Assembly (NCBI GenBank): GCA_021776235.1
Contig: JAJFGG010000050.1
Coordinates: forward strand, 1-64,000
Source of the DNA: Alphaproteobacteria bacterium
Lineage (GTDB): Bacteria > Pseudomonadota > Alphaproteobacteria > GCA-2731375
Length of the DNA: 64,000 nt
Reading direction: 5' to 3'
Shown: positions 18,923 to 62,480 of the stretch, piece after piece
How the letters are laid out: each line of letters starts with the position of its first letter
Position numbering within the stretch: the stretch's first letter is position 1
Position numbers and translations under genes: made by a program
The notes under the pieces: generated by a model
Seen by the model: the letters and a program-made list of their open reading frames with translations, nothing else
What the model was told of the DNA's origin: nothing
Databases searched by the model: none

Positions 18923-19166
18923 GGAAGGATCCTTTGAAAAATTCGACGGCAATTTATTGTACCGTCATACTTGGCTTGAATGGTTCTGTTTGGTTCACAT
19001 TCCCGTCAACGCCCGGGCGCGGAGGTGCCGATGTGATCTGCCTGGCAGGGTGGTTGATGTCATCGGGTTGGTCGTGCTGCTGCGCCGGCGGCGTGCCGCA
19101 AAGCGTGGCATTCGGGCGGAATGGCGATAATATGGGCGGCAGGGTCAAACAGGAGGACGGAGTGGA

Positions 19167-20792
19167 ATGAGCGTGCGAAATTGTGATGTTGTCATTGTTG
19201 GCGCCGGATTCTCGGGGCTGTACCTTTTGCACCGTTTGCGTGGTCTGGGATATTCGATCCGAATGTTCGAGGCCGGGCATGATGTTGGCGGGACCTGGTA
19301 TTGGAACCGTTATCCGGGCGCACGGTGCGATGTGGAAAGCATGCAATATTCCTATTCCTTCTCCGAGGAATTGCAGCAGGAATGGAACTGGAGCGAACGC
19401 TTTTCGGCCCAGCCGGAGATCCTGGAATACGCCGGGCATGTGGCCGACCGCTTCGATCTGCGCCGCAGTATCGAATTTGCTACCACCGTAACCAGCGCCC
19501 ATTTTGACGAAGCGGACCGGCGATGGACCGTCGAGACCGACAAGGGCGAGCAACTTTCGGCGCAATTCTGCGTCATGGCCACGGGCTGTATATCGACGGC
19601 ACAGATCCCGGATTTCGAAGGCCTGGCTGAATATCAGGGCGATACCTACCATACGGGAAACTGGCCTCACGAAGGCGTTGATTTCTCGGGCCAGCGCATC
19701 GCGGTCATTGGCACCGGTTCGTCCGGTATCCAGGCCATTCCGGTCATAGCCGAGCAGGCGGCCCATGTGACCGTCTTCCAACGAACGGCAAATTATTCGT
19801 TGCCCGCGCGGAACGGCCCGATGACCACGGAATACGCCCGCTCGTGGAAGGACAATTACGCCGCCCTGCGGGAGCAGCAGCGCCAGACCCCCAAGGGCGC
19901 CCTTCGCGAATTCAATGATGTGTCGGGCCTGACGGTTTCGGAGGAAGAACGCACGGCGATGTACGAGGCGCGCTGGTCCCTTGGTGGCGCCTCTTTATTG
20001 GGCACTTACAGGGACATACTGACCAATGCCGAGGTCAACGAGACGGCGGCGGAATTCGCCCGCGAAAAGGTTCGCGCCATCGTCGATGACCCGGCTGTCG
20101 CCGAGCGGCTGGCGGCAAAGGGATATCCCATCGGCACCAAACGCATTTGCATCGACAGCGGCTATTTCGAAACCTTCAACCGCGATAGCGTGGTGCTGGT
20201 GGACATCAACGACACGCCGATCGAGCAGATCACGGCCAGCGGTCTGCGCACCAGCGGCCATTCCTATGAATTTGACGCGATCGTCTTCGCGACCGGCTTC
20301 GATGCCATGACGGGAACGTTGTTCAAGATTGATATCCAGGGACGCGGGGGCGCCACGTTGCGCGGAAAATGGAATGCCGGGCCCCGCACATACCTTGGCC
20401 TGATGTCCGAAGCCTTCCCGAATATGTTCATGGTCACCGGGCCCGGCAGCCCCTCGGTTCTGACCAACATGATGGTTTCGATCGAGCAGCATGTCGATTG
20501 GATAACCGATTGTCTGCTGCATATGCGGTCCCGCGGGCTGGAGACCATGGAGCCAACCCTGGAGGCGCAGGACGACTGGGTCGAACACGTCAACGTGGTC
20601 GCCCATCGAACGCTCTTTCCGCTGGCCGCGTCGTGGTACATGGGCGCGAATATCCCCGGCAAGCCGCGCATCTTCATGCCCTACGTAGGCGGCGCCGGCG
20701 TTTATCGAGAAATCTGCGATAAGGTTGTCGCTGATGGCTATGAAGGCTTCCGCTTTCATCCGGATCCGGCGAAACTGGCGGCTGCGGAATAG
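19167..20792 (+). CDS. Flavin-containing (Baeyer-Villiger-type) monooxygenase
   Basis: 541 residues. FAD-binding GAGFSG is near residue 12, followed by GTWYWNRYPGARCD, a strong cyclohexanone-monooxygenase marker. The BVMO fingerprint is present as YQGDTYHTGNWP, and the NADPH-binding GTGSSG follows. Such enzymes convert ketones to esters or lactones with O2 and NADPH. A strong GGAGG lies upstream of the ATG. An SDR 70 bases downstream could make the ketone from an alcohol, a classic alicyclic degradation pairing. Substrate range is not readable. Confidence 0.94.
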   Translation: MSVRNCDVVIVGAGFSGLYLLHRLRGLGYSIRMFEAGHDVGGTWYWNRYPGARCDVESMQYSYSFSEELQQEWNWSERFSAQPEILEYAGHVADRFDLRRSIEFATTVTSAHFDEADRRWTVETDKGEQLSAQFCVMATGCISTAQIPDFEGLAEYQGDTYHTGNWPHEGVDFSGQRIAVIGTGSSGIQAIPVIAEQAAHVTVFQRTANYSLPARNGPMTTEYARSWKDNYAALREQQRQTPKGALREFNDVSGLTVSEEERTAMYEARWSLGGASLLGTYRDILTNAEVNETAAEFAREKVRAIVDDPAVAERLAAKGYPIGTKRICIDSGYFETFNRDSVVLVDINDTPIEQITASGLRTSGHSYEFDAIVFATGFDAMTGTLFKIDIQGRGGATLRGKWNAGPRTYLGLMSEAFPNMFMVTGPGSPSVLTNMMVSIEQHVDWITDCLLHMRSRGLETMEPTLEAQDDWVEHVNVVAHRTLFPLAASWYMGANIPGKPRIFMPYVGGAGVYREICDKVVADGYEGFRFHPDPAKLAAAE

Positions 20793-45822: not shown

Positions 45823-48579
45823 CTATGTGACGATGTTGAGCATGTTGGCGGTGCTGCCGCCGCCCTGGCCGTTCAGGCGCATTTGATTGGTCAGGTTCAT
45901 CGAAGAGGCGACGCCGCTAATGGCCGAAAGGGCGCCCTGCAACTGGGCCAGGCGTTCGGCGTCGGCCGGCTTGATGCTGTTGTTCAAGGCGCTTAGGGGG
46001 TCATCCTCGGGACCGACGGCGATAAAGCGGAACATCTTGCGCACCTCGCGCAGGGCATTGTCGATCAGGACACCGGCGTCCGCCGCGCCCCTGGTTGTGG
46101 ACAGGGAGATATCTCCGGCCATGCCCAGTTCGAAGATCTTGGCCTCGGCCACATCGGTTTCTTCATCGTCCAGGCCGGCGGGTTCCGCATACAGCACGGC
46201 CTCGGTCAGGCCGAGAGAGGCAAGGGCGTCGGAACCCTCGGGCCCGGCGATGATCTCCACCACCGCGCCATTCTTGGCCTCGATCTTCAGGGCCGAGTCG
46301 ACCGAGCCGCGCTCCAGCGTGCTGCTGCCATATTGACCCATGGCGTTATTGATCTTGACGGCCAGTAAACCCAGGCTGTCATCGGTTTCGATTTCAATGC
46401 GTTTGGTCGCGCCGCCGTCGACCCGGATGGAGAAGTACTGCCCCGGCCGCGCGGTGGTCAGGCTCAACACTTCCGTTCCCGGTTCTTCCGGCATATCACC
46501 GGTGGTCAGGCCAAGGCGGCTGATCACGGACGTGGCCGTGGCGTCATAGGCGATGGCATTGCCGCTTTGACTGACGGCGCTGTGATCCTGATGGGCCCAG
46601 ACTTCCGTCCCGGTGTTATCCAGTTTCATGACGAAGGCGTCTTGCGCGCTGGCCGCGGCGCCGCCGTCAACGGCGCCTGTCGTGGCGCCGGTGACATAGA
46701 TTTCGTCGGCGCCGGCAGCTGCCTTGACGGCGATGCCGCCCAGGGTATCGGTGCTGGCGCTGCCCACATAGGTGGTAAATCCAACCGCGGCGGAGGCCCC
46801 GGAATCGATAATCTGGCTGACGAAACCGTCGGTGCCGCCGGAATGGGCGTTGACGATACTGCCCGACAGGGCCGCGTTGCTGGTCTGGCCCGAGAGATAG
46901 ACGTTGCCGCTGCTGCCCACGGCGATGCCACTGACCGCGCCGTCGCTGTTCAGGGCGCCCAGGTCGACCTCCCAATCCGGCGTTTGCGAGACGTCACTGT
47001 CAACATAGCGGCGCAGGATGGCGTTGCCGTCCTTTTCGCCAGCGACATAGATATTGCCCGATCCGTCCACCGCGACGGCCGTGGCGCGGTCGTTGCCGGT
47101 ACCGCCGAACTGCTTGTCCCAGACATGGGTGCCGCTGCTGTCCAGTTTGGTCAAATAGGCATCGGTGCCGCCCGCATGGGTCATCCCGGTGCTGATTTCA
47201 GATGCTGTCTGGCCTGCCACGAAGACGTTGCCGCTGGCATCCGTCGTCAAGGCCAGGGCGCTGTCGTTGGCATAGGGCGCGGCCTGACGGGTCCATTGTT
47301 CGGCCCCGGTACTGTCGAACTTGGTCACGAAGCTGTCGTAGTTGCCGCCATAGGCGGTCTCGGTCAATACACCCCGCGCGCTGCCCGCGATGACGATCTC
47401 GTCATTGACGTCAACGGCGACCGCAAAGCCGGAGGCGTCCTCGGTGGCGCCCAGCAGACGCGACCAGACCAGTTCGCCGGAAACATCGTATTTGCGCAAA
47501 TAGGCATCGTTTTCCGCCTGGTTGGCAAGGCCGCCCAGATCGCCGGCGGTGGAGCCGACCGAATAGACATTGCCCTGGCTGTCGACCGCAATGGCGCTGG
47601 CGCTGTCGGCTTCGGCCGTGTCGGTATCCGATCGGAAGGCATCATTGGGGCTGGTATTGCCCAGGTCGTCGACCTTCTGCACATAGCCCGAGGCATAGTC
47701 GCCGACGCTGCGGGTGCCGGCAATATAAAGGCCGGGTGTCTGATCGGAGGCATTGCCAAGGGTCACGGTTTCCGTGCTGTTCAAGTTCAGTTTCAGGCCG
47801 TACGAGGTTTCGCTGTGGCGTTCAGCCTGGATGGTCGAGGTGACACCGGCGCCGGACAACTGCGTATTGATGTAGTCGGCGACGTTATCCACATTCAGGG
47901 TGCCGCTGACCGCCGATAGGTCGATGTTGACGACCGTTGTGCCAACGGAATTGACCACGGTGATGTCAAAGGTTTCGTTGCCGACCAGTCCGCTGATGGC
48001 ATCCGTGCGGACCTCTGTCAGGCTGGCGCCTGTATGAAACAGGGTGGTGTATGTGGGATCCTTGGGAAAGCTCAGGGAACTGGTGATGCTGCTTTGCTGC
48101 AATCCGTAGAGCAGGGTGGTGTCTTCAAACTGCAGGCCTTCGACGAAGCTCTTGGCCTCGGCCAGATAACCGTCAAAGCGCTGCTGCAGTATGGTGGCGC
48201 GGCTGGTGGCGCCGGAATCGGATTCCGCATAGGTCGCCATTTCACGCAGCTTTGTCAGGCCGTTGAATAGTCCGAACAGGTTCTTGAACTGATCGTCGCC
48301 GGCCGTGTTGTTGACCTTCGGATCCTCGAGATCGATCAATGGACCGGTGGAAAAGATGCGTTGCAGTATCTCGTCGTAAGGATTGGATTGCGGCAGGGTC
48401 CAGGGCGGGATGACGGCAGGGTCCACCTTGGCGAAGGAACCGTTCAGCAGTTCCTCTTGTATCTTCGCGGCATGACCGGACAAGCCCAGTGAGACGCCGC
48501 TGGAGTAGTAGGCGCCAAGGACGTTGTTATCGAACGTCGCCACCTGGAATTGACTGTTGGCTGTTGGATTGATGGCCAT
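45823..48579 (-). CDS. SBBP-repeat protein resembling regulatory FlaEY
   Basis: 918 residues. Multiple copies of a beta-propeller/SBBP unit run through the middle: D-x-G-N-V/I-Y-V-A/S-G, for example VDSQGNVYSVGSTAGDLGG, TDASGNVFVAGQTASEI and VDGSGNIYVAGEKDGN. No signal peptide is evident. The N-terminal part and a flagellin-like block (ADYINTQLSGAGVTSTIQAE) plus a helical C terminus ending LNIVT look like flagellum-associated FlaEY proteins of Alphaproteobacteria. It is divergent from the carbohydrate operon. Flagellar role is an inference from family. Confidence 0.62.
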   Translation of the reverse strand: MAINPTANSQFQVATFDNNVLGAYYSSGVSLGLSGHAAKIQEELLNGSFAKVDPAVIPPWTLPQSNPYDEILQRIFSTGPLIDLEDPKVNNTAGDDQFKNLFGLFNGLTKLREMATYAESDSGATSRATILQQRFDGYLAEAKSFVEGLQFEDTTLLYGLQQSSITSSLSFPKDPTYTTLFHTGASLTEVRTDAISGLVGNETFDITVVNSVGTTVVNIDLSAVSGTLNVDNVADYINTQLSGAGVTSTIQAERHSETSYGLKLNLNSTETVTLGNASDQTPGLYIAGTRSVGDYASGYVQKVDDLGNTSPNDAFRSDTDTAEADSASAIAVDSQGNVYSVGSTAGDLGGLANQAENDAYLRKYDVSGELVWSRLLGATEDASGFAVAVDVNDEIVIAGSARGVLTETAYGGNYDSFVTKFDSTGAEQWTRQAAPYANDSALALTTDASGNVFVAGQTASEISTGMTHAGGTDAYLTKLDSSGTHVWDKQFGGTGNDRATAVAVDGSGNIYVAGEKDGNAILRRYVDSDVSQTPDWEVDLGALNSDGAVSGIAVGSSGNVYLSGQTSNAALSGSIVNAHSGGTDGFVSQIIDSGASAAVGFTTYVGSASTDTLGGIAVKAAAGADEIYVTGATTGAVDGGAAASAQDAFVMKLDNTGTEVWAHQDHSAVSQSGNAIAYDATATSVISRLGLTTGDMPEEPGTEVLSLTTARPGQYFSIRVDGGATKRIEIETDDSLGLLAVKINNAMGQYGSSTLERGSVDSALKIEAKNGAVVEIIAGPEGSDALASLGLTEAVLYAEPAGLDDEETDVAEAKIFELGMAGDISLSTTRGAADAGVLIDNALREVRKMFRFIAVGPEDDPLSALNNSIKPADAERLAQLQGALSAISGVASSMNLTNQMRLNGQGGGSTANMLNIVT

Positions 48580-48850
48580 GTACCGCTCAGCGCTGCTGGC
48601 TTCTCCGTCAATAATCCGCCTGGCCGGGCTGGCCGGCCGGGCGGGTGAACCCGAAATGGATTCACTTGATCTGGCAGTTTGCCATTGAACCGGTTAACGG
48701 GGGATGAATGGCAATGGTTAATGCGCAGACCCGCGCGGTGGATAAAGCCGTTGAGTTTTACGATGTATTAACCGCGACGATGGACACTTGCACAATTCGG
48801 CGCGGAACCCGACCCGCCGTGCATTGAATTTTAACGGTTCATCGGCCGGG
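48580..48850. other. Divergent promoter region between flaEY-like and sugar operon
   Basis: About 270 bases, partly low-complexity GC (GGCCGGGCTGGCCGGCC). It separates two divergent long units and should contain both promoters. I see no convincing sigma54 or sigma28 site. Confidence 0.5.
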
Positions 48851-50437
48851 ATGGCGCGTATGACTATTGAATACCTGAACATTCAACCAGGCGGCGCCGG
48901 TTCGCCAGCCACCGCGCGCGACAAAATTCATAACATCGAAGAACTGGCCCGCATGGCGGATGCGACCCGGGCCGCCGGCGGCCAGGTGGTCCTGGCGCAT
49001 GGCGTGTTCGATCTTTTGCACATGGGCCATGTCCGTCACCTGGAAGCGGCGCGTGCCGAGGGCGACCTTTTGATCGTTACCCTGACCGCCGACCGCTATG
49101 TCAACAAGGGGCCGGGACGCCCGGTTTTTCCCGAACTGACCCGGGCCGAAATGGTTGCCGCGCTGCGTTGCGTGGATGGGGTCGGCATTTCCAACTGGTC
49201 CACGGCCGAGGGCGTGCTGCGCTTTATCCGCCCGTCGGTCTTCATCAAAGGTCAGGACTATGCCAATGAAGCCGAGGATATCACGGGTGGTATTCGGCGC
49301 GAGCGGGAGCTGGTGGAAAGCTTCAACGGCCGCATCGTGTTCACCGATGATATTACGGATTCTTCGTCGGCCCTGATCAACCGCCATCTGAATGTCTATG
49401 ATTCCGAAGTCAATGACTATCTAAGCAATCTGCGTGACAACGATGTCGCAAGCCAGGTCGTCACGGCCCTGGAAGGCATTCAGAATCACAAGGTTCTGAT
49501 GATCGGCGAAGCGATCATCGACGAGTATCAGTATGCCGCGCCCATGGGCAAATCGGCCAAGGAGAATATTATAGCCTCGCGCTATGAGGGCCGTGAGGTC
49601 TTCGCCGGCGGCGTCATTGCCTCGGCCAATCATGTTGCCTCGTTTGTCGACCAGGTGGACGTCATTACCTGTATCGGCGAAGAGGATTCATACGAGGATC
49701 TGATCCTTGAAACCGCGGTGCAGAACGTAAACGTGCATTTCGTGCGCCTGCCGGGGGTCCCGACGATCCGCAAATGCCGCTTCGTGGATCCCGGTCACCT
49801 GCGAAAGCTGTTCGAAGTCTATCATTTTGACGATACCCCCCTGACGGGCCGCAAGGAAGACGAGGTCTGCAGCCTGATTGCCGAGCGGGCAGCGGATGTG
49901 GATCTGGTCATCGTGAATGATTTTGGCCACGGCATGCTGACACCGCGGTCCGTTGACCAGATTATTCGCCGCTCCCGCTTTCTGGCCGTCAATGCACAAA
50001 GCAACAGTGCCAATCACGGCTACAACATGGTCAACAAATACGCCCGCGCGGATTATGTCTGCATCGACGCGCCCGAGGCCCGATTGGCGGTGCGGGACCG
50101 TTTTTCCGACATCAGCGATCTTGTGCAGGGGCCATTGCGGGAACTGATCGATTGCGACCAGATCATCGTGACCCATGGGCAGAACGGCTGCATCACATTC
50201 GACAGCAAGAACGGTCTGGGCAAGGTGCCCGCCTTTACCCGCCAGGTGGTGGACACGGTGGGCGCGGGCGATGCCTTCCTGTCGGTTACCGCGCCGTTGG
50301 TGCAATCGAATGTGCCCATGGAACTGGTCGGCCTGATCGGTAATGCGGTGGGCGCCATGAAGGTCGGCATCGTCGGCCATCGGCAGTCCGTACAACGGGT
50401 GCCGCTGATGAAATTCCTGACGGCATTATTGAAATAA
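48851..50437 (+). CDS. Cytidylyltransferase-PfkB kinase fusion (HldE-like, reversed order)
   Basis: 528 residues. N-terminal nucleotidyltransferase: VVLAHGVFDLLHMGHVRHLE (GxFDxxHxGH) and VFIKGQDYANEAEDITGG. C-terminal PfkB/ribokinase-like kinase: FAGGVIASANHVASFVDQVD and the catalytic DTVGAGDAFLSVTAPL. In HldE (ADP-heptose synthesis) the kinase comes first; here the order is swapped. It likely phosphorylates and nucleotidylates a heptose-type sugar. Starts at ATG 48851 or 48860. Leads the operon; the next gene begins within its stop codon. Confidence 0.88.
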   Translation: MARMTIEYLNIQPGGAGSPATARDKIHNIEELARMADATRAAGGQVVLAHGVFDLLHMGHVRHLEAARAEGDLLIVTLTADRYVNKGPGRPVFPELTRAEMVAALRCVDGVGISNWSTAEGVLRFIRPSVFIKGQDYANEAEDITGGIRRERELVESFNGRIVFTDDITDSSSALINRHLNVYDSEVNDYLSNLRDNDVASQVVTALEGIQNHKVLMIGEAIIDEYQYAAPMGKSAKENIIASRYEGREVFAGGVIASANHVASFVDQVDVITCIGEEDSYEDLILETAVQNVNVHFVRLPGVPTIRKCRFVDPGHLRKLFEVYHFDDTPLTGRKEDEVCSLIAERAADVDLVIVNDFGHGMLTPRSVDQIIRRSRFLAVNAQSNSANHGYNMVNKYARADYVCIDAPEARLAVRDRFSDISDLVQGPLRELIDCDQIIVTHGQNGCITFDSKNGLGKVPAFTRQVVDTVGAGDAFLSVTAPLVQSNVPMELVGLIGNAVGAMKVGIVGHRQSVQRVPLMKFLTALLK

Positions 50438-51117
50438 TGGATGAAACAATGACAAAAAATCGCGTGGCCGCCATGCAGGCGCGGGTCGAAGACTATTTCA
50501 CCGAGCTCGCCCGGTTGCCGGAACAGACCGTGGTTACGGACGGCAAGGCGGCCGAAATGGCCATGGCGGATCTATTCCCCATTATGATCGGGCATTTTGC
50601 CCGGATGCGGGACGGCGACGGCAAATTGTTGTTCGTGGGCAATGGCGCCTCGGCTTCCATTGCCTCGCACATGGCTTTGGATTTCTCCAAGAACGGCAAG
50701 GTTCCGGCCCTGGCCTTCAATGACGCGGCAGCGCTGACGGCGCTGAGTAACGACGAAGGCTATGATCAGGTCTTTGCCAAGCAGATCGAATATTTTGCCG
50801 CCGAGACTGACCTTCTGATCGCAATATCCTCTTCCGGCAACTCGGAAAATATCGTCAAGGCAGTACAGGCAGCCCGCGCCAAGGGCTGTGGCGTGCTGAC
50901 CCTGTCGGGCCTTGGCGCGGACAACAAGCTGCGCCAGTTGGGGGATTACAATCTATTTGTCCCGTCCGGCGAATATGGCTTTGTCGAAGTGGTGCACGGC
51001 GGCTTGATCCACGCCTTGCTGGATATCTTCATGGGGTGGTCGGCGCGGACGGGTCTTTGGAACCGCTCCGATACGCCGCCCGCCGGCGAACCGGTGCAAA
51101 AGAGGGGCGTGGCATGA
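50437..51117 (+). CDS. SIS-domain sugar isomerase (GmhA-like)
   Basis: 226 residues. SIS motifs LLFVGNGASASIASHMALDF and DLLIAISSSGNSENIVKAV are GmhA-like; GmhA converts sedoheptulose-7-phosphate to heptose-7-phosphate. It is longer than GmhA (about 190). It overlaps the fusion stop by one base (TAATG) and the epimerase start by four (ATGA). Context suggests a heptose-like sugar. Confidence 0.88.
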   Translation: MDETMTKNRVAAMQARVEDYFTELARLPEQTVVTDGKAAEMAMADLFPIMIGHFARMRDGDGKLLFVGNGASASIASHMALDFSKNGKVPALAFNDAAALTALSNDEGYDQVFAKQIEYFAAETDLLIAISSSGNSENIVKAVQAARAKGCGVLTLSGLGADNKLRQLGDYNLFVPSGEYGFVEVVHGGLIHALLDIFMGWSARTGLWNRSDTPPAGEPVQKRGVA

Positions 51118-52121
51118 ACGAGGGTAACAATACAATGAATGTCATGGTGACGGGCGGCGGCGGCTACGTGGGATCATGCCTGATCCCAAAACTACTGGCC
51201 GCAGGTCACAAGGTGACCGTGTTGGACTTGTTCATCTATGGCATGGAGGTCTTCAACGGTGTCGGCGAGCATGCCAACCTGCGTTGCGTTCGCGGCGATA
51301 TCCGTGACCCGAAGGCGGTGGCCAAGGCCGTTGAAAACGCCGATGCGGTGATCCATCTGGCCTGCATCTCCAACGATCCAAGTTTCGAATTGAACCCGGA
51401 TCTGGGCCGCTCCATCAATTTTGATTGTTTCCAGCCGCTGGTCCGGGCCGCCAAGGACGCGGGCGTGCGGCGCTTTATCTACGCCTCCTCATCCTCGGTT
51501 TACGGCATCAAGAGCACGGACAACGTAACCGAGGAGCTGTCCCTGGAGCCCCTGACGGACTATTCAAAGTTCAAGGCCATGTGCGAAGAGGTTTTGGAGC
51601 GCGAGCGCGAACCGGGTTTTGTCACCCTGACCCTGCGTCCGGCCACGGTCTGCGGCTATGCCCCGCGCCTGCGCCTGGACCTGACCGTCAACATTCTGAC
51701 CAATCATGCCATCAACAACAACAAAATCACGGTTTTCGGCGGGGCGCAGAAACGGCCCAACATCAACGTCGAGGATATGACCGACCTATACGTCCAATGC
51801 CTGCAGTATCCCGACGAGATGATAGACGGCAAGGTGTTCAACGCCGGTTACGAGAACCATACGGTCAGTCAAATTGCCGAAATGGTGCGCCGCAATGTCG
51901 GCGACAAGGTGGATATCGTCACCACGCCGACCGACGATAACCGTTCCTACCACGTCTCTTCGGCCAAGATGCAGCGGGAACTGGGCTTTACCCCCCGGCA
52001 CAGCATCGATGATGCGGTGGCCAGCCTGACGGCGGCATTCAACGCGGGCAAAGTGCCAAATCCCATGACGGATGCCAGATATTACAACGTCAAGCTGATG
52101 CAGGACATCCAGCTACAATAG
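51114..52121 (+). CDS. NAD-dependent epimerase/dehydratase (extended SDR)
   Basis: 335 residues. NAD motif TGGGGYVGS (residues 13-21), IHLACISNDPSFELN, the catalytic SSSSVYG and YSKFK (Tyr-x3-Lys). It most resembles nucleotide-sugar 4-epimerases or 4,6-dehydratases. Start overlaps the isomerase stop (ATGA). Confidence 0.9.
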   Translation: MNEGNNTMNVMVTGGGGYVGSCLIPKLLAAGHKVTVLDLFIYGMEVFNGVGEHANLRCVRGDIRDPKAVAKAVENADAVIHLACISNDPSFELNPDLGRSINFDCFQPLVRAAKDAGVRRFIYASSSSVYGIKSTDNVTEELSLEPLTDYSKFKAMCEEVLEREREPGFVTLTLRPATVCGYAPRLRLDLTVNILTNHAINNNKITVFGGAQKRPNINVEDMTDLYVQCLQYPDEMIDGKVFNAGYENHTVSQIAEMVRRNVGDKVDIVTTPTDDNRSYHVSSAKMQRELGFTPRHSIDDAVASLTAAFNAGKVPNPMTDARYYNVKLMQDIQLQ

Positions 52122-52286
52122 GGCCGCCGCTTGCCGTTATCCGGTCCGGAATTGTCAGGAAGCGCCTTGTGCGGCCCGAAAGCCGGCCCCCGGATCGCCC
52201 TGAAAGACCAAAGGCGTAGGGCAATGTTAACCATTTTCACCCTTAATCAGTCCCATCTATCACTCGGATAGTCAGGACGTCAGGGT

Positions 52287-52922
52287 ATGCGTATCGGCAT
52301 CGATTTCGATAACACGATTGCAGGTTATGATGGCTTGTTCGCCACCTTGGCGGAGGAGCGCGGATTATTTCAACGGGCGCCGGTGGGCAAACGTGACCTG
52401 CGCGATGCCTTGCGCCAACGGCCCGAAGGCGAACTGACCTGGCGGCGTCTGCAGGCAACCGCCTATGGCAGCCGCATGGGGGACGCCGAATTGCAGGATG
52501 GCGTCGCACGTTTCATCCGGACCTGCGCTCAAACCGGCATTTCGGTATCCGTCGTCTCACACAAGACCCGGCATGCCAATTTTGCCTCCGACGGCGCGGA
52601 TTTGCGCCGGGCGGCGACGGCATGGATGGAAGAGCACGGCTTTTTCGACGTCACGGGCCTGAAATTATGCCGCGATGATATCCATTTCGAGGATACCCGC
52701 GCGGCCAAGGTCGCCAGGATCAGCCAATTGAACTGCCAATGGTTCATCGACGATCTGGAAGAGGTTTTCGCCGAACCCGGCTTTCCCAGTTTTGTCCGCG
52801 CGGTCCTGTACGACCCGCATGGCCGCGATCCGGCGGCCAAAGATCCGGGCCTGGGTGCCGATCTGCTGCGCTGCCGCCATTGGGATGAAATTGGAGGGCA
52901 TGTATTTGGCCCCGGGCATTAG
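52287..52922 (+). CDS. HAD-superfamily phosphatase-like protein
   Basis: 211 residues. The HAD motif I is at the start: MRIGIDFDNTIAGYD (nucleophile Asp and acid/base Asp). Motif II SVVSHKTRHA and the late CQWFIDDLEEVF (motif IV) follow. Likely dephosphorylates a sugar phosphate within the operon. It begins 165 bases after the epimerase and overlaps the following kinase by 23 bases. Confidence 0.85.
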   Translation: MRIGIDFDNTIAGYDGLFATLAEERGLFQRAPVGKRDLRDALRQRPEGELTWRRLQATAYGSRMGDAELQDGVARFIRTCAQTGISVSVVSHKTRHANFASDGADLRRAATAWMEEHGFFDVTGLKLCRDDIHFEDTRAAKVARISQLNCQWFIDDLEEVFAEPGFPSFVRAVLYDPHGRDPAAKDPGLGADLLRCRHWDEIGGHVFGPGH

Positions 52923-53952
52923 TATTGATACGCCCGAGGCGGCCGAGGCGGCGGCTACCGCTTTGCTGGGCAATCCGGTGCGCCAGGTCAGCCGGCAACG
53001 GGGTGGCGGCAACAACCGGCTGTACCGAGTCGAGGCGGCGGACGGCCGGCATTACGCCCTGAAAACATATTTGCAACGGCCCGGCGACGACCGCGATCGC
53101 CTGGGAGCGGAGTTTGGCGGCCTGTCATTCCTCGGCGCGCAGGGGTTGGAGCATCAGGTGCCCCGCGCCGTGGCCCGTGATCCGGCCCGCCATTGCGCCC
53201 TGTTTGGCTGGGTCGATGGCGACGCCGTGGGCCAGCCGACCCCCCGTGATCTGTTCGAAGCCCTGTGTTTCGTACTTGACCTATACCGCCTGGCACAACA
53301 GCCCGAGGCAGCGGCACTTTCCCTGGCATCGGAAGCCTGCCTGTCCGGCGCCGAGGTGGTGCGGCAAATAGATACACGTCTGGATCGCCTGTTGTCGATT
53401 GACGACCGGCGCCTGCGCCCGTTCCTGATCGATAGTTTTGCGCCGGTCTGCGAACGACACTGCGATCAGGCCATGCTGGGTTACCAGGACCAGAACATGA
53501 ATTTCTCCGAGCCCCTGGCGCCGATTGCCTTGACCCTGTCGCCCTCGGACTTCGGCTTTCACAACGCCATTCGCCGGTCTGACGGCCGCCTGGTCTTTGT
53601 CGATTTCGAATATTTTGGCTGGGATGATCCGGTGAAGCTGGTGGCGGATTTTCTCCTTCATCCTGGAATGAGCCTGGATGTGGAAATGCGCCGCCGTTTT
53701 CGCCGGGGCGCGGTGGCGGCCTTTGGCGGCGACCGTGGCTTCGATCTCCGACTGCGGGCGCTGTTTCCCCTCTATACCCTGCGCTGGTGTCTCATCCTGC
53801 TGAATGAATTCTTGCCCGAACGGTGGCAGCGCCGCGACTACGCCGGCGCCCACCAAGACCGGGAATTTGCCCTGAACAATCAACTGGCCAAGGCAACGGC
53901 CATGCTGCATCGCATTGATGACGCCAACACAGAGGTTTTTGATGATGATTAA
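52900..53952 (+). CDS. APH-family (aminoglycoside phosphotransferase-like) kinase
   Basis: 350 residues. GGGNNRLYRVEAADGRHYALK is the N-lobe nucleotide region. LSPSDFGFHNAI is a variant of the catalytic HxDxxxxN loop, and VFVDFEYFGWDDPVKL carries the DFE metal Asp. Such kinases phosphorylate choline, sugars or small alcohols. Start could be ATG 52900 (GGAGG too close) or TTG 52906, which spaces better. Overlaps the HAD gene by 23 bases. Confidence 0.82.
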   Translation: MYLAPGISIDTPEAAEAAATALLGNPVRQVSRQRGGGNNRLYRVEAADGRHYALKTYLQRPGDDRDRLGAEFGGLSFLGAQGLEHQVPRAVARDPARHCALFGWVDGDAVGQPTPRDLFEALCFVLDLYRLAQQPEAAALSLASEACLSGAEVVRQIDTRLDRLLSIDDRRLRPFLIDSFAPVCERHCDQAMLGYQDQNMNFSEPLAPIALTLSPSDFGFHNAIRRSDGRLVFVDFEYFGWDDPVKLVADFLLHPGMSLDVEMRRRFRRGAVAAFGGDRGFDLRLRALFPLYTLRWCLILLNEFLPERWQRRDYAGAHQDREFALNNQLAKATAMLHRIDDANTEVFDDD

Positions 53953-54802
53953 TCTAGCCGCATTGGAGCGTGAGGCGCATGCCATATACGAGCCGCTGGC
54001 GCTGGACCGCCGCTCGCGGGATCTGCGCCGTCTGGTCGTACGCGGCCTGGTGGGTGGTGGCCGGGGCCATCTGGGCTCGGCCTTGTCGGCTATCGAAATC
54101 GTACGCGTCCTGTATGACGATATCATGGCGCATAATCCCGAAAAGCATAATTGGCAGGACCGGGACCGTTTTCTGCTGTCCAAGGGCCATGGCTGCCTGG
54201 CGCAATATGCAATTCTGGCCGACCACGGCTACTTCTCCAAGGGTGAGCTTGACCGGTTTTGCCGCTTTGACGGCATTCTGGGCGGACATCCTGATGCCGG
54301 AAAAGTTCCCGGCGTGGAAGCCTCGACCGGGGCCCTGGGACATGGCCCGTCAATAGGTGTCGGCATGGCGGTGGCGGCCAAGTTGAAGGGCGCGGCGCAC
54401 CGCATCTTTGTCGTTACCGGCGACGGTGAAATCAACGAAGGCTCGGTCTGGGAGGCGGCCATGACGGCCGGCAAGCACAAGCTCGACAACTTCACGATCA
54501 TTGTCGATTACAACAAGCTGCAATCCTACCAGCGCACAGAGGTTGTCCAGGACCTGGAGCCGCTGACGTCAAAATGGGAAAGCTTTGGTTTCGCCGTCCG
54601 GAATGTCGATGGCCATGACGTGGAAGGCCTGCAACGGACATTTTCCACGCTTCCCTTTGCCACCGGGCGGCCCAATGCGGTGATCGCCCATACCATCAAG
54701 GGCCGGGGCGTGGCGCACGCCGAGGGCGACCCCGCCTGGCACCACAAATCCAACATGAGCGCCGCGGAAATAGCCGGCGTTCTGCAGGCCATAGGGGACT
54801 GA
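53942..54802 (+). CDS. Transketolase N-terminal (TPP-binding) subunit
   Basis: 286 residues. GGGRGHLGSALSAIEIV, LSKGHGCLAQYAILAD and the thiamine diphosphate motif GDGEINEGSVWEAA...DYNKLQ define the pyrophosphate half. The protein stops where fused transketolases would continue; the pyrimidine half is the next gene. GAGG lies six bases before the ATG. It ends two bases before the next start. Split transketolases in sugar loci transfer two-carbon units. Confidence 0.92.
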   Translation: MMINLAALEREAHAIYEPLALDRRSRDLRRLVVRGLVGGGRGHLGSALSAIEIVRVLYDDIMAHNPEKHNWQDRDRFLLSKGHGCLAQYAILADHGYFSKGELDRFCRFDGILGGHPDAGKVPGVEASTGALGHGPSIGVGMAVAAKLKGAAHRIFVVTGDGEINEGSVWEAAMTAGKHKLDNFTIIVDYNKLQSYQRTEVVQDLEPLTSKWESFGFAVRNVDGHDVEGLQRTFSTLPFATGRPNAVIAHTIKGRGVAHAEGDPAWHHKSNMSAAEIAGVLQAIGD

Positions 54803-54804
54803 GC

Positions 54805-55749
54805 ATGCGCAAAACCTGTCTCGACGTAGTCTACGAACTGGCCAAGCAGGATGAACGAGTGGTCTTTATCGGTTCTGACCTGGGGGCCGGCACCCTGGAT
54901 CAATTCCGCGATGAAATGCCAGACCGTTTCTTTATGGAAGGGGTCTCGGAGCAGAATTTGATCGGCATGGCCGCCGGCCTGGCCATGGAGGGCTATATTC
55001 CCTATGTCAACACCATTGCCACCTTCATCACCCGGCGCTGTTACGAGCAGTTGGCTGTGGATCTGTGTCTGCATAATCTGCCCGTGAAGCTGATCGCCAA
55101 TGGCGGCGGTCTGGTCTATGCCCCCTTGGGTCCGACGCATCTGGCGATCGAGGATCTGGCGATCCTGCGCGCCTTGCCCCGGATGACCGTGTTCGCACCC
55201 TGCGACAAGGACGAGATGGCGCGCCTGGTGCCCCAGACCCTGGACCTGGAGGGGCCCTGTTATATCCGTCTGGCCAAGGGCGGCGACGAGGTTGTCTCCG
55301 ACCCCGCCCATGGTTTCACCATGGGCCGCGCCATCACGCTGCGGCAGCCGGGCAAGGTATTGATTATCGGCACCGGCATCACCTCCACCCGGGCCCTGCA
55401 TGCGGCGAACGAGCTGGCGGACGAGGGCATCGAATGCGGCGTCCTGCATATGCATACGGTCAAGCCCCTGGATGAAGCCGCCATTTTGTCCAGTCTGGAC
55501 CAGGTGGATCTGCTGGTGACGGTGGAAGAACACACCTTGGTCGGCGGTTTGGGAAGCGCGGTGGGTGATCTGCTGTTCGATCAGGCGCCGGCATCGGCAA
55601 GCCGTCTGCTGCGTCTGGGCATTCCGGACAGGTTCGCCGACAAATACGGCACCCAGGACGAATTGTTGGAATACTACGGCCTTCAGGGGCCGCAAATAGC
55701 CCAGCGGATTCGTGACACTTTATCCGGCGCCGGGAAACAGGTGGCATGA
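54805..55749 (+). CDS. Transketolase C-terminal (pyrimidine-binding) subunit
   Basis: 314 residues. FFMEGVSEQNLIGMAAGLAM holds the Glu that activates TPP; TFITRRCYEQLAVDLCLHNL and a C-terminal transketolase domain (VLHMHTVKPLDEAAIL) follow. With the preceding gene it completes one transketolase. Overlaps the oxygenase start by 4 bases. Confidence 0.92.
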   Translation: MRKTCLDVVYELAKQDERVVFIGSDLGAGTLDQFRDEMPDRFFMEGVSEQNLIGMAAGLAMEGYIPYVNTIATFITRRCYEQLAVDLCLHNLPVKLIANGGGLVYAPLGPTHLAIEDLAILRALPRMTVFAPCDKDEMARLVPQTLDLEGPCYIRLAKGGDEVVSDPAHGFTMGRAITLRQPGKVLIIGTGITSTRALHAANELADEGIECGVLHMHTVKPLDEAAILSSLDQVDLLVTVEEHTLVGGLGSAVGDLLFDQAPASASRLLRLGIPDRFADKYGTQDELLEYYGLQGPQIAQRIRDTLSGAGKQVA

Positions 55750-56573
55750 ACCTGGAATTGCCACAGGTGAACGGCTTTCTGCGCGCGGACGAGGCCGCGT
55801 TGGGGGCGCAATTCCTTGAACATGGCTATGTCGTTGCGCCCGTCGCGGATTTAGGGGCGTTGCATAACCTGCGCGGGGCCCTGGCCGAGACGGCCGCCCA
55901 GCATCTGGGGCTGGGCAAACCGGACGATCCGGGCGCCTTGCTGGACGATATTCATAGTCAGGTCAAGGCCACGGCGCTGAATGCCCTGCGGATGGCGGTG
56001 ATCAACGGGGTTAATAACCTGCCCTGGGCCCGGCAAGTCTATTTCGAACTGGCCCGGCCCTTGCTCGAGACCATCGTCGGCAACGAACTGGCCATGCAGC
56101 GGCGTTTGAACCTGTCCATCCAGATGCCCGGTGACGACTCTTCGCTGTTGGCGGTGCATGCCGATGTCTGGGATGGCGACTCGCCATTTGAAGTCGTTGT
56201 CTGGCTGCCCCTGGTGGATTGTTTCAATACCAAGACTATGTTTCTGCTGCCGCCCGACAAGGGCAGGACGGTGGAAGCGCGCATGGGAGACTTCGACGGC
56301 GGCGATACGGATGATCTGTTCGCGGCGATTGAGGATGATTTGTTCTGGTTGGACGTTCCCTACGGCAACGTCCTGTTGTTCAACCAGAATTTGATGCATG
56401 GCAATCGTATCAACCGCGAGGGCGGCACCCGTTGGACCATGAATTGCCGCTTCAAGGGGCTGTTTTCTCCCTATGCCGGCAAGCGTCTGGGCGAATTTTT
56501 CGAACCCATCACGGTTCGCCCCGCCAGCCGTGTCGGCATGAGCCATGCATTGCCGGGAGGTTTTGTTGAATAA
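55746..56573 (+). CDS. Sporadic carbohydrate-cluster 2OG-Fe(II) oxygenase
   Basis: 275 residues. HADVWDG carries the His-x-Asp iron pair, and LMHGNRINREGGTRW has the distal His with an Arg for 2-oxoglutarate. The protein resembles the 2OG-Fe oxygenase repeatedly found beside LIC12192-family proteins in scattered surface-carbohydrate loci, as here. Substrate, presumably a sugar or sugar-lipid, unknown. Reads into the next gene with an 8-base overlap. Confidence 0.82.
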   Translation: MNLELPQVNGFLRADEAALGAQFLEHGYVVAPVADLGALHNLRGALAETAAQHLGLGKPDDPGALLDDIHSQVKATALNALRMAVINGVNNLPWARQVYFELARPLLETIVGNELAMQRRLNLSIQMPGDDSSLLAVHADVWDGDSPFEVVVWLPLVDCFNTKTMFLLPPDKGRTVEARMGDFDGGDTDDLFAAIEDDLFWLDVPYGNVLLFNQNLMHGNRINREGGTRWTMNCRFKGLFSPYAGKRLGEFFEPITVRPASRVGMSHALPGGFVE

Positions 56574-56970
56574 CCGCCGGGGGCATCGCGGCTATATCGC
56601 CTCCCGTCCCGTTCGCGGGCAGGAATGGCCGCAGCATGTGCAAAACCTGGTGGTTCGCGACTATGCCCAGCGCAATGACCTGCATTATCTGCTCAGCGCC
56701 ACGGAATACGCCATGGATGCCTGCTATATGAACCTGGACACGGTGCTGGGTGAACTGGACCACATTGAAGGGATTGTCTGTTTTTCCCTGTTCATGTTGC
56801 CGGCCCGGGCGGAACGGCGCCTTGCCCTGTACCAACGGATTTTCGATTCGGGTGGTGATTTGCACGGCGCCTTGGAAAATATGGCGATCCGGGGGCCGGA
56901 GGATGCCGCCCGCCTGGAAGACATCTTCATGGTGGATCGTCACGCAGCATCATCCCAGGCGGGGTATTAG
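56566..56970 (+). CDS. Sporadic carbohydrate-cluster protein, LIC12192 family
   Basis: 134 residues. GHRGYIASRPVRGQEWPQHVQNLVVRDYA (described in two blocks: GHRGYIASRPVRG and QNLVVRDYA) and GIVCFSLFMLP match the LIC12192 family of unknown function. TTG start is chosen because GGGAGG lies five bases upstream, inside the oxygenase end; an ATG 21 bases earlier is possible. Its constant pairing with the oxygenase suggests one step or complex. Confidence 0.8.
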   Translation: MNNRRGHRGYIASRPVRGQEWPQHVQNLVVRDYAQRNDLHYLLSATEYAMDACYMNLDTVLGELDHIEGIVCFSLFMLPARAERRLALYQRIFDSGGDLHGALENMAIRGPEDAARLEDIFMVDRHAASSQAGY

Positions 56971-56976
56971 GGCATC

Positions 56977-57639
56977 ATGGCTTATGTGGATTTCGTAGGC
57001 GCCGTGCATAAATCAACCAAACGTGACTATGTTCAGCGGGTGGTGGAGCATGACAAGGCTGAATGCGCCGAAGTGGCCGGCCAATTCGGCCAGGATTATT
57101 GGGACGGCGACCGGCGTTATGGCTTCGGCGGGTATCATTATGATGGCCGCTGGCGGGTGGTGGCGGATGCCATGGTGGCCCATTACGACCTGCAGCCGGG
57201 CGCCAGAATTCTCGATATTGGCTGCGGCAAGGGCTTTCTGCTCTATGAATTCAGCCAGGCCTTGAAAGGCGCCCGGCTTAGCGGCATCGATATCTCGGAA
57301 TACGGCATCGAAAACGCCAAGGAAGAGGTTCGGCCGAACCTCACGCTTGGCAATTGCAAGGATCTGCCGTACGACGATAACGAATTCGATTTCGTATATT
57401 CAATCAATACCTTTCATAATCTTTTTAACTTTGAACTTTACCCTTCATTGCAGGAAATGCAGCGGGTTGGCCGGGGCTCAAAGCACATCACGATCGAGAG
57501 TTATCGCAACGAGCGCGAGAAGGCGAACCTGCTTTATTGGCAGCTTACCTGCCGCGCGTTCATGATGCCGGCGGAATGGGAATTCACCTTCCAACAGGCC
57601 GGTTACGATGGCGACTATGGCTATATCACTTTCGAATAG
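56977..57639 (+). CDS. SAM-dependent methyltransferase (1)
   Basis: 220 residues. GARILDIGCGKGFLLYEF is motif I; ISEYGIENAKEEV and DLPYDDNEFDFVYSINTFHNL complete the class I fold. Starts 7 bases after the LIC12192 stop, so part of the operon. Likely methylates a sugar or lipid-linked glycan. Confidence 0.88.
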   Translation: MAYVDFVGAVHKSTKRDYVQRVVEHDKAECAEVAGQFGQDYWDGDRRYGFGGYHYDGRWRVVADAMVAHYDLQPGARILDIGCGKGFLLYEFSQALKGARLSGIDISEYGIENAKEEVRPNLTLGNCKDLPYDDNEFDFVYSINTFHNLFNFELYPSLQEMQRVGRGSKHITIESYRNEREKANLLYWQLTCRAFMMPAEWEFTFQQAGYDGDYGYITFE

Positions 57640-57673
57640 GCGAAACTAAAAAGGCAGGTACCCAGGTAGAAAC

Positions 57674-58351
57674 ATGGCACGGACCAAGGAAGCACAATAC
57701 GAGGACTGCCTGCGGGCGGCGGAAGAATCAGGCATTGATAACCTGGGCGTCATGACCAATCAGGTTTGGCGTGACGACCCACGCCGCCTGGCCATCTTGC
57801 TCTCCCGTTACAAATTCGTCGGCAAAATGCTGTCAGGCAAGCGCCGGGTGGTGGAGGTTGGCTGTGGCGACGCCTTCGGCAGCCGCGTGGTGCAGCAGGA
57901 AACCGGCGAATTGACGGTGTTGGACATCGATCCGGTGTTCATCGCCGATATTAAACTGCGCATGCATCCTGATTGGCCCCTGACGGCGGCGACCCATGAC
58001 ATGCTGTCGGGCCCGTATCCGGGCATCTTCGATGCCGCTTACAGCCTCGACGTATTGGAACATATTCCGGCGGCGGAGGAACAAACCTTTCTCCACAACA
58101 TTGTCGCCTCCCTCAACAAAGATGGTGTGCTGATCGTTGGCATGCCATCCCTGGAAAGCCAGGAATACGCCTCGCCGCAAAGCAAGATCGGCCACATAAA
58201 CTGCAAGCACGGGTCCGATCTAAAGGCCCTGATGGCGCAATTCTTTGACAACGTCTTTGTATTTTCCATGAATGACGAGGTCGTGCACACGGGTTATTGG
58301 CCCATGGCTCATTATTATCTGGCGCTATGCTGTGGTAAGCAGCGGTTCTAG
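57674..58351 (+). CDS. SAM-dependent methyltransferase (2)
   Basis: 225 residues. Motif I RRVVEVGCGDAFGSRVV, motif II LTVLDID, and FDAAYSLDVLEHIP are clear. It differs from the first methyltransferase, so two separate methyl groups may be placed. It overlaps the following reductase start. Confidence 0.88.
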   Translation: MARTKEAQYEDCLRAAEESGIDNLGVMTNQVWRDDPRRLAILLSRYKFVGKMLSGKRRVVEVGCGDAFGSRVVQQETGELTVLDIDPVFIADIKLRMHPDWPLTAATHDMLSGPYPGIFDAAYSLDVLEHIPAAEEQTFLHNIVASLNKDGVLIVGMPSLESQEYASPQSKIGHINCKHGSDLKALMAQFFDNVFVFSMNDEVVHTGYWPMAHYYLALCCGKQRF

Positions 58352-59210
58352 CGCGAACGGCGCGCTGATCGTCGGCGGCGACAGTATGATCGGTGCCGCC
58401 ATGTTCGAGTACTTTTCTGCGCAGGGCTGGCGAGTTCAGGCAACGACCCGGCGCCGGGACCACGTTGACGCGGTGCATCCCTATTTGGATCTGTCGGCCC
58501 CGAGCCAGGATCTTCCGGCCGCGGATTTCGTTATCCTCGCCGCCGCCATTGCCCGCATTGGCGATTGCGAGTCTCAACCAGAGTCGACCCGGCGCATCAA
58601 CGTCGACGGCACCTTGAGTGTCGCCCGAGATTTGGCCGGGCAGGGCAGTCATGTCCTGTTGCTGTCCAGCGACAAGGTCTTTGACGGCACAATTCCCATG
58701 CGCCGCCGCCATGACGAACCGTGCCCGGCCTGTGCCTACGGCGAACAGAAGGCGGTCGCCGAAGCCGGCGTCCTGGCCCTGGGCGATCAGGGCGCCGTCT
58801 TGCGCCTAAGCAAGGTGTTGGAACCCGGTCTGGACTTATTGACCGGCTGGGCCAGGGATCTTGATGCAGGGCAACCCATCACACCCTTCCATGATTTGTA
58901 CCTGGCGCCGGTGAGGGTCGCCATGGTGGCGCGGATCGCAGCGCATATCGCCGACGAACGGGCGGCGGGCATCTATCACTGCACCGGCGCCGCGGATCAC
59001 TCTTACGTGGATCTGGCACGTATTCTGGTGGCTGGAATGGACCGCGATCCGGAATTGATCCAACCAATATCATGCGAGGCTGCGAACCTTCCCGCCGCGG
59101 CCCGCCCCCGTCATACCACTCTTGAAATGACAGTGGAGCAAGCCCGTTGGGGACTGACAGCGCCGTTGTTCGAGGTCACGGCGAACGACGTCATCGGATG
59201 CCTTGGATAG
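58332..59210 (+). CDS. RmlD/sugar-nucleotide reductase-like SDR
   Basis: 292 residues. ALIVGGDSMIGAAMFEYF is the NAD motif, LLLSSDKVFDG and YGEQKAVAEAG (Tyr-x3-Lys) resemble RmlD (dTDP-4-dehydrorhamnose reductase). The start is a GTG inside the methyltransferase end, with no strong ribosome site. It would finish a deoxy- or reduced sugar and ends the operon; the ABC-F gene converges 25 bases later. Confidence 0.85.
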   Translation: MVSSGSSANGALIVGGDSMIGAAMFEYFSAQGWRVQATTRRRDHVDAVHPYLDLSAPSQDLPAADFVILAAAIARIGDCESQPESTRRINVDGTLSVARDLAGQGSHVLLLSSDKVFDGTIPMRRRHDEPCPACAYGEQKAVAEAGVLALGDQGAVLRLSKVLEPGLDLLTGWARDLDAGQPITPFHDLYLAPVRVAMVARIAAHIADERAAGIYHCTGAADHSYVDLARILVAGMDRDPELIQPISCEAANLPAAARPRHTTLEMTVEQARWGLTAPLFEVTANDVIGCLG

Positions 59211-61640: not shown

Positions 61641-62480
61641 ATGTTGCACCGCGAACCCCTGCGGGCCATAGACGACCAGGAAGTCGCTGACTTCGCGCGC
61701 GATGGCGCCGTGCTGTTGAAGGGGCTGTTCGATCTTGATTGGATCGAATTGCTGGCAGAGGCGGTGGAGGCGGACAAGGCCGCGCCGGGCCCCATGGTGC
61801 GTTACAATACGCCGCCGGGGGACGCCGGCGAATTCTTCGTCGATTTTCAGTTATGGCAGCGTTGGGAAGGGGCCCGGCATTTTGCCTTCGAAGGCCCTGG
61901 TGGGGCCATTGCGGCCCGCATGATGGGCGCCGCTTCGATCAACTATTACCACGACCATTTGTTGGTAAAGGAACCGGGCACTGCCGAGAAGACGCCCTGG
62001 CATCATGACCAACCCTATTATCCCGTTGACGGCGGGATGGTTGGTTCCATCTGGCTACCTCTGGACCCAGTGCCCAGGAATGTCTGTGTGGAGTATGTCG
62101 CCGGCTCCCACCGCTGGGGCCGCTGGTTCGCACCGCAATTCTTCAAATCCGGCAATCCGGACCTACAGGTTCAAGATCCCCGATTTGAAACCATCCCGGA
62201 TTTCGATGCGCAGCGTGAGCAGCATGAACTGTTATCCTGGGATTTGGCATTGGGCGATTGCATATTTTTCCACGGTCTGACAGTCCACGGCGCGCCGGGC
62301 AACCTATCGGTCCAGGGCCGGCGGCGGGCCTATGCGACCCGCTGGCTGGGCGAGGATGCGCGCTATGCCACAAGGATTGGGCAGATCTCGCCGCCCATTG
62401 AAGGTCACGGCCTGAAGCCTGGCGACGCAATGGACTGTGAAATGTTTCCGAGAGTCTGGCCCGTTACCACCGGGCCATGA
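61641..62480 (+). CDS. Phytanoyl-CoA dioxygenase family protein
   Basis: 279 residues. WHHDQPYYPVDGG holds the His-x-Asp iron ligands; FHGLTVHGAPGN has the distal His; RRRAYATRWLG an Arg for 2OG. Fe(II)/2-oxoglutarate hydroxylase. 15 bases after ndk, though a functional link is not obvious. Distinct from the carbohydrate-locus oxygenase. Confidence 0.9.
   Translation: MLHREPLRAIDDQEVADFARDGAVLLKGLFDLDWIELLAEAVEADKAAPGPMVRYNTPPGDAGEFFVDFQLWQRWEGARHFAFEGPGGAIAARMMGAASINYYHDHLLVKEPGTAEKTPWHHDQPYYPVDGGMVGSIWLPLDPVPRNVCVEYVAGSHRWGRWFAPQFFKSGNPDLQVQDPRFETIPDFDAQREQHELLSWDLALGDCIFFHGLTVHGAPGNLSVQGRRRAYATRWLGEDARYATRIGQISPPIEGHGLKPGDAMDCEMFPRVWPVTTGP

Follow-up and report, generated by a model that had tools for sequence, protein, structure and literature searches.

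The locus and its twelve genes

The 64,000-nt window analysed here (contig JAJFGG010000050.1 of assembly GCA_021776235.1, from an alphaproteobacterium) contains a run of twelve carbohydrate genes at 48860-59210, referred to below as the operon. The original prediction, made from the sequence alone, had described a twelve-gene operon with heptose logic and a split transketolase. All twelve genes are indeed found on the + strand and in the order claimed:

48860..50437, +: HldEsw, nucleotidyltransferase (N-terminal) fused to a PfkB/HldA-like kinase (C-terminal); HldE model, Pfam
50437..51117, +: SIS, GmhA-like sugar-phosphate isomerase; TIGR00441, solved relatives
51114..52121, +: EPI, probable NDP-heptose C4-dehydrogenase or epimerase; 6vo6/6vo8, Pfam Epimerase
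52287..52922, +: HAD, probable sugar phosphatase; invariant active-site residues
52900..53952, +: APH-like kinase; invariant active-site residues
53942..54802, +: TKN, thiamine diphosphate (ThDP)-binding half of a split transketolase; Pfam Transketolase_N 147.9 bits, 6yak
54805..55749, +: TKC, pyrimidine-binding and C-terminal half of the split transketolase; 6yaj, alignment
55746..56573, +: 2OG, 2-oxoglutarate (2OG)-Fe(II) oxygenase; TIGR04324 300.7 bits
56566..56970, +: LIC, LIC12192-family protein with a predicted serine-recombinase fold; TIGR04323 136.1 bits, predicted structure
56977..57639, +: MT1, class I methyltransferase; Pfam Methyltransf_25/11
57674..58351, +: MT2, class I methyltransferase; Pfam Methyltransf_11
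58332..59210, +: RmlD-like NAD(P)-dependent reductase; TIGR01214 124.7 bits, below the cut-off of 224.05

The first gene had been placed at 48851, and its start was moved to the ATG at 48860, which is kept in five aligned sequences of the genus. The TTG start of LIC (56566) was set by comparison, with ATG 56545 as a possible alternative, and the GTG start of RmlD was our own choice.

The genes overlap or nearly touch over most of the region, as had been predicted, with nine of the 11 junctions overlapping or at most 6 nt apart (some of the starts behind these lengths were chosen by us). Overlaps are seen for HldEsw/SIS (1 nt), SIS/EPI (4 nt), HAD/APH (23 nt), APH/TKN (11 nt), TKC/2OG (4 nt), 2OG/LIC (8 nt) and MT2/RmlD (20 nt), and gaps for TKN/TKC (2 nt), LIC/MT1 (6 nt), MT1/MT2 (34 nt) and EPI/HAD (165 nt, 52122-52286). 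The EPI/HAD gap holds unrelated inserted genes in three members of the genus (L082, L083 and L084, where L denotes loci, C contigs and G genomes). The length of this gap and the insertions into it indicate that the twelve genes probably form two transcription units split at EPI/HAD, so that the gene set, order and tight packing of the predicted operon hold while its single transcription unit probably does not. The insertions lie exactly between EPI and HAD (L082:3006-6358, L083:5172-6380 and L084:3014-6407) and include cyclic-nucleotide-binding-like and aminotransferase-like frames, as read by eye.

All twelve genes are found in the identical order in other families (L034, L046) and in loci of metagenome-assembled genomes (MAGs; L088, L092, L094), and the arrangement is therefore more than chance. 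Three sub-modules recur as well, HldEsw-SIS-EPI, HAD-APH-TKN-TKC and 2OG-LIC-MT1, and in many loci two DegT aminotransferases follow the second of these.

Probable heptose enzymes, the split transketolase and the 2OG-LIC pair

Matches to enzyme families and to solved structures support the predicted heptose logic, as does a canonical set of paralogues at other places in the genome. HldEsw scores 151.9 bits against the HldE model NF008454, which is under the equivalog cut-off of 521 and leaves it outside HldE proper. Its residues 24-147 match HldE profile positions 320-443, and its Pfam domain order (CTP_transf_like, then PfkB) is the reverse of that in kinase-first HldE. SIS likewise falls outside the GmhA equivalog (101.1 bits against TIGR00441, cut-off 209.45), and its solved relatives are phosphoheptose isomerases. 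The solved structures nearest to EPI by sequence are 6vo6/6vo8 (132 bits, next 93), which we take to be Campylobacter Cj1427, a GDP-heptose C4-dehydrogenase. EPI is thus a probable NDP-heptose C4-dehydrogenase or epimerase.

No Pfam or NCBIfam match was obtained for HAD and APH at E 0.001. The residues D6, D8, T10, S91, K141, D155 and D156 of HAD (37 aligned sequences) and K55, E71, D217, N222 and D235 of APH (38 aligned sequences) are invariant, and these positions are residues of HAD and kinase active sites. The alignments consisted of 36 of 42 thinned sequences for HAD, 37 of 43 for APH and 57 of 58 for LIC, each plus the window.

In the own genome (G000, 6.36 Mb in 174 contigs) an HldE with the kinase first is encoded at C121:4208-5734, and a GmhA-like gene lies on C31, a full-length transketolase on C140 and DXS on C78. 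Since canonical HldE, GmhA and transketolase sit elsewhere in the same genome, the operon is a dedicated second set and not the housekeeping set for lipopolysaccharide heptose or the pentose phosphate pathway. Judged by these enzyme families, its product is likely to be a heptose-type nucleotide sugar. The genome also has a second split transketolase (C159, L175:4304-6081), which lies downstream of a PhyH-like frame and is without the canonical acceptor Asp and His.

TKN and TKC best match the split transketolase of Carboxydothermus (6yak for TKN and 6yaj for TKC). When the window sequence was read against solved-structure alignments, TKN showed the GDG..N motif and His residues of a ThDP-binding half. 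For TKC we aligned 23 orthologues chosen from a larger set found. The catalytic Glu, the H of GPTH and the conserved Arg2 are each kept in 23/23, and none of the 23 has the canonical acceptor-site pair of Asp and His. The Asp of GEDGPTH is replaced by Leu in 22 and by Asn in one, and the His by Gly in 22 and by Ser in one; in the window the altered motif APLGPTH begins at nt 55120. We take the canonical pair to be D469 and H461 of the Escherichia coli transketolase. In transketolase these residues bind the hydroxyl and phosphate of the acceptor, and because they are lost, the altered site of TKC would fit a non-standard, keto-sugar acceptor and a C2-branched product.

There are precedents for such chemistry (papers are cited here by PMC number, for selected passages). 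Split-gene transketolases of miharamycin and amipurimycin are proposed, so far without proof, to add a hydroxyacetyl group to keto sugars; 13 split-gene candidates are listed, all from streptomycetes, and the same 2025 review calls the reaction with a ketone acceptor uncharacterised in vitro (PMC12247030). C2 branches are also put on sugars by YerE and, as proposed, by AviB1/AviB2 (PMC4753412). The altered acceptor site together with these precedents is the ground for reading the product as a branched sugar. The predicted use of a transketolase to build a two-carbon-extended or branched sugar is therefore plausible, and a branch made by TKN/TKC is a possible, although doubtful, form of it. What weighs against this reading is that the second split transketolase of the genome has Ala and Cys at the acceptor Asp and His positions, so that the loss of the acceptor Asp is common to both enzymes and not specific to this pathway.

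A simpler role for the transketolase would be to supply sedoheptulose-7-phosphate or an octulose phosphate to SIS, which would make the product a linear, unbranched heptose or octose and leave the link to flagellin described below intact. This is a serious possibility, as the SIS/GmhA logic requires a ketose phosphate and TKC retains its catalytic Glu, the H of GPTH and Arg2. It is harder to reconcile with the full-length transketolase already present in the genome and with the absence of the canonical acceptor Asp and His from all 23 orthologues, even if octulose phosphate would still be possible.

Both members of the NCBIfam "sporadic carbohydrate cluster" are clear family members here, with 2OG scoring 300.7 bits against TIGR04324 (cut-off 150) and LIC 136.1 bits against TIGR04323 (cut-off 55). 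H138, D140, H218 and R229 of 2OG are invariant in 47 sequences (46 hand-chosen loci plus the window) and make up the HxD...H triad and distal Arg. The predicted structure of 2OG has a PhyH-like fold (PtlH 2rds, Z 16.2, rmsd 3.6, 213 aligned), which does not tell the substrate. Another PhyH-type 2OG oxygenase (PF05721) lies near the operon at 61641-62480, and this proximity is kept in L045 and L049.

LIC had no sequence relative among solved structures (best E 1.2). Its predicted structure (mean pLDDT 91, built on 58 sequences) best matches 4bqq (Z 14.1, rmsd 2.9, 129 aligned) and also 2gm5 (Z 12.7, rmsd 2.9, 116 aligned). The first 31 rows of the fold search contain only serine recombinases and recombinase-like proteins of transposons (Z 9.4-14.1, next row 7.0), and the top Foldseek matches agree with the fold of the serine-recombinase catalytic domain. 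At the position of the Ser nucleophile, presumably Ser10 of resolvase, LIC has Arg15 in 58/58 sequences (register from the fold-alignment ranges), and with ≈134 aa it is without a DNA-binding domain. LIC is for these two reasons probably not a recombinase, as far as the model goes.

When named genomes were searched with the 2OG alignment, 248 relatives were confirmed, and 80 of them (L080-L159) were retained. LIC is directly beside 2OG in 79 of these 80 loci, and the one exception (L089) is cut off by the end of its contig. The two genes are likewise adjacent in 27 of 29 other loci. The other loci include L058 and L059, which lack a 2OG or LIC match (L059 was taken on a below-cut-off LIC match with a stop). 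Such tight pairing suggests that LIC is a partner of 2OG or an enzyme of the same step. The phage and plasmid collections gave no match to the 2OG protein. In the literature the phrase "sporadic carbohydrate cluster" was not found, and LIC12192, SpoChoClust and TIGR04323 did not occur among the matches listed. Judged by title and start of abstract, no paper among further matches listed was recognised as dealing with the cluster, and the matches for transketolase with "flagellin glycosylation" were unrelated.

Flagellar links and distribution

The family scans of the operon proteins bear out that the operon has no glycosyltransferase, and the prediction that its product must be attached by others can now be made specific. 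In several relatives the operon runs up against the oppositely oriented gene of a TPR protein (≈975 aa) that contains a GT41 domain (PF13844), and flagellin, FlbT and FlaF come next. These were named by family scan in L046 and found by similarity in L032, L034, L042, L048, L054, L086, L088, L094, L097, L098, L100 and L115, although not all four in every one of the latter. A stretch of 20.8 kb in L088 holds the FlaEY-like gene described below, the twelve genes in window order, TPR-GT41, flagellin, FlbT and FlaF. In the own genome the best TPR-GT41 homologue is a 986-aa frame at C13:13081-15978 (37% identity), with a flagellin match 359 nt away and then FlbT- and FlaF-like frames, as read by eye.

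The layout in L046, L088 and C13 is that of FlmG, with a TPR and glycosyltransferase protein beside flagellin. Caulobacter FlmG, a TPR plus GT-B protein of 596 residues, binds flagellins through the TPR domain and attaches pseudaminic acid to them by O-glycosylation in the cytoplasm (PMC7591256). Because of the matching layout, the TPR-GT41 protein by analogy probably takes FlmG's part for the sugar of the operon.

A second, probable flagellar link and a CtrA-like box are found upstream of the operon:

45823..48579, -: SBBP-repeat protein, divergent, FlaEY-like; SBBP repeats, flagellar links elsewhere
48757..48773, +: CtrA-like box TTTA-N7-TTAACC; divergent promoter region

We take the SBBP-repeat gene to be of the FlaEY type. 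In Caulobacter, FlaE and FlaY modulate flagellin expression (PMC8921679). Of 385 genomes sampled from the class, 27 have the N-terminal part of the FlaEY-like protein and 33 have TIGR04323 (LIC), 29 of these over the cut-off. Both occur together in 14 genomes, with 2.3 expected (hypergeometric p 6e-10, uncorrected for relatedness), and on one contig in 10 of the 14.

The neighbours of the FlaEY-like gene in L193-L201 were named by reading translated frames by eye. Where the cluster is absent or elsewhere, the gene is found beside FlgI (L193), FlgI and FliG (L195) or two flagellins (L194), and in L197 and L201 beside a NeuB-like synthase with FlgI. In L198, L199 and L200 the gene and the first half of the operon are divergently oriented, and the 2OG-LIC half sits elsewhere, beside TPR-GT41 and flagellin. 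The FlaEY-like protein is thus probably flagellar. As its gene adjoins a NeuB-like synthase in some loci and the operon in others, we infer that the pathway held in this one type of flagellar locus can be either nonulosonic or heptose-type.

The CtrA-like box is the only match in 64 kb (0.05 expected) and is present in all five aligned genus sequences; the CtrA and sigma-54 consensuses used are those we take to be standard. Sigma-54 control of the operon was considered and rejected, as sigma-54-like sites are found before two own flagellin genes and none before the operon. A sigma-70 scan gave 5 sites with 4.8 expected.

The 80 kept relatives come from many alphaproteobacterial MAGs, Azospirillum, Skermanella, Nitrospirillum, Reyranella, Magnetospirillum and Thalassobaculum. 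Another 17 loci carry the title Bradyrhizobium, others are from cyanobacteria and from gamma- and betaproteobacterial MAGs, and Ignavibacteriota and Bacteroidota are each represented by a single MAG so labelled. Within the genus, LIC is found in 8 of 11 genomes. Flagellar markers were found in 13 of the 80 named loci and in 11 of the 29 others, and flagellin itself in 7 of the 80; GT41-only matches in L129, L139 and L144 were discounted. In a tree of 2OG (66 of the 80 named proteins plus the window, with 14 near-identical Bradyrhizobium rows left out) the loci with a flagellar marker are clustered, with 6 changes against a shuffled mean of 12.8 and none of 500 shuffles as low. The window clade (12 rows, support 99/98) has 8 rows with a flagellar marker, and its 4 unmarked rows are short contigs or loci starting inside HldEsw. 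The marker is not limited to one clade.

Several observations weigh against flagellin as the target. No flagellar marker was counted in 67 of the 80 named loci (fetched flanks of at most 10 kb), including the 17 titled Bradyrhizobium, and similar modules without flagellar neighbours also occur in cyanobacteria and on one phage-like contig. Three of the 11 genus genomes are without LIC. In the own genome the TPR-GT41 gene is on another contig than the operon, and four NeuB matches mean that a nonulosonic acid could be the flagellin sugar there. These four matches also rule out the absence of NeuB as a way of excluding nonulosonic acid. G359, a genus member with the operon, gave no NeuB match. 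PF01973 (MptE-like) had no match in the own genome, and as its controls were positive only in archaea this says nothing firm on Maf transferases.

The sugar might instead go to a surface polysaccharide (O-antigen, capsule or exopolysaccharide) or a glycolipid, with the FlaEY-like neighbour being incidental. We regard this as unlikely. The module is present in cyanobacteria (L129, L130, L144), the heptoses of Campylobacter are capsular (PMC10680097) and the Bradyrhizobium copy in L136 adjoins membrane and C-methyltransferase-like genes with no flagellin. However, TPR-GT41 plus flagellin, or else the FlaEY-like gene, directly adjoins the operon in the window clade and in other lineages, and according to the family scans the operon has no flippase, polymerase or glycosyltransferase.

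The L136 copy (589-19447), read by eye, has two epimerases, two DegT aminotransferases and a cupin-like gene, and the membrane proteins and the C-methyltransferase-like gene come after the cassette. It perhaps makes a related, aminated sugar destined for a glycolipid or polysaccharide. The Bradyrhizobium copies include genomes titled B. diazoefficiens and B. japonicum; the bradyrhizose cluster (PMC4743980) was considered as their identity, and no link is claimed.

A reduced cassette is carried by a phage-like contig (IMGVR_UViG_3300047552_000915, L161:1888-10009), flanked by a DnaB-like helicase gene on one side and by terminase and portal genes on the other. It consists of a second epimerase, a nucleotidyltransferase without kinase, SIS, EPI, MT2, TKN, TKC, 2OG, LIC and MT1, with no HAD or APH match, and possibly serves virion or DNA modification. 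L162 is 99.98% identical over 15,953 nt.

That the product is a small molecule that diffuses, or another metabolite not bound for the surface, is in our view very improbable. 2OG oxygenases are common in antibiotic clusters, and streptomycete antibiotic clusters hold split transketolases with presumed ketone acceptors (PMC12247030). No export, resistance or assembly-line gene was found in the operon by the family scans, which together with the flagellar linkage of the module argues against such a product.

Proposed pathway and comparison with known systems

We consider it reasonably probable that the operon makes a nucleotide-activated, heptose-derived and tailored sugar used for flagellin O-glycosylation. 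What was observed is which genes are present, how they are conserved, their catalytic residues and folds, and their physical links; from these we infer every reaction and product that follows. By family, SIS would turn a ketose phosphate into an aldose phosphate, HldEsw would add a 1-phosphate with its kinase half, HAD would remove the other phosphate and the nucleotidyltransferase half of HldEsw would make the NDP-heptose. EPI, going by its nearest solved relative, would oxidise this to a 4-keto sugar. The split transketolase would move a ketol (C2) unit, from its acceptor site likeliest onto this keto sugar and not an aldose phosphate. APH, RmlD, 2OG with its partner LIC, and MT1/MT2 may then, in some order, finish the sugar, and the TPR-GT41 protein encoded beside flagellin (C13:13048-15999) would transfer the finished sugar to flagellin in the cytoplasm. 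Tentatively, the product might be a nine-carbon C2-branched sugar of Gram-negative bacteria, formed by TKN/TKC from a 4-keto NDP-heptose and a glycolaldehyde unit, tailored by 2OG/LIC and put onto flagellin by TPR-GT41.

If the proposed pathway is true, a heptose/transketolase route would join the known nonulosonic-acid routes of flagellin glycosylation, with a C-C bond-forming transketolase that has a probable ketone acceptor, and the recombinase fold modelled for LIC would have been reused in sugar metabolism. Two families that carry no more than the label "sporadic carbohydrate cluster" in databases would gain a pathway, a transferase and a target. The branched sugar, if real, would add a new class to the flagellin glycans and would provide a natural ketone-acceptor transketolase, which is still unproven according to PMC12247030.

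The families TIGR04323 (LIC12192) and TIGR04324 are both represented in the operon, adjacent and above cut-off. Their descriptions name no function, and the operon adds conserved partners, a flagellar context in one set of lineages and the predicted fold of LIC. New here are the TPR-GT41 candidate with its flagellar linkage, the acceptor-site change and the predicted recombinase fold of LIC.

The capsular GDP-heptose modification of Campylobacter jejuni shares the SIS/kinase/nucleotidyltransferase logic and a Cj1427-like enzyme, whereas the operon has the swapped HldE fusion, the split transketolase, 2OG, LIC and APH, and a flagellar context. LIC appears to share the fold of the catalytic domain with serine recombinases like phiC31 integrase and gamma-delta resolvase, but it is without their DNA-binding domain and has Arg at the position of the Ser nucleophile.

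The split transketolases of miharamycin and amipurimycin, likened here by description, also belong to sugar clusters and have a presumed keto-sugar acceptor (PMC12247030), but the candidates are streptomycete only, while that of the operon is Gram-negative and flagellum-linked. YerE and, as proposed, AviB1/AviB2 perform a ThDP-dependent C2 branching of a keto sugar (PMC4753412) as predicted here, but with an acetyl unit from pyruvate, whereas TKN/TKC belong to the transketolase family. Finally, the Caulobacter FlmG system has the same combination of a TPR and glycosyltransferase protein beside flagellin, and cytoplasmic O-glycosylation is proposed for both. It differs in that FlmG has 596 aa, while the protein found here is of GT41 type with ≈980 aa, and its donor is predicted to be heptose-derived and not pseudaminic acid.

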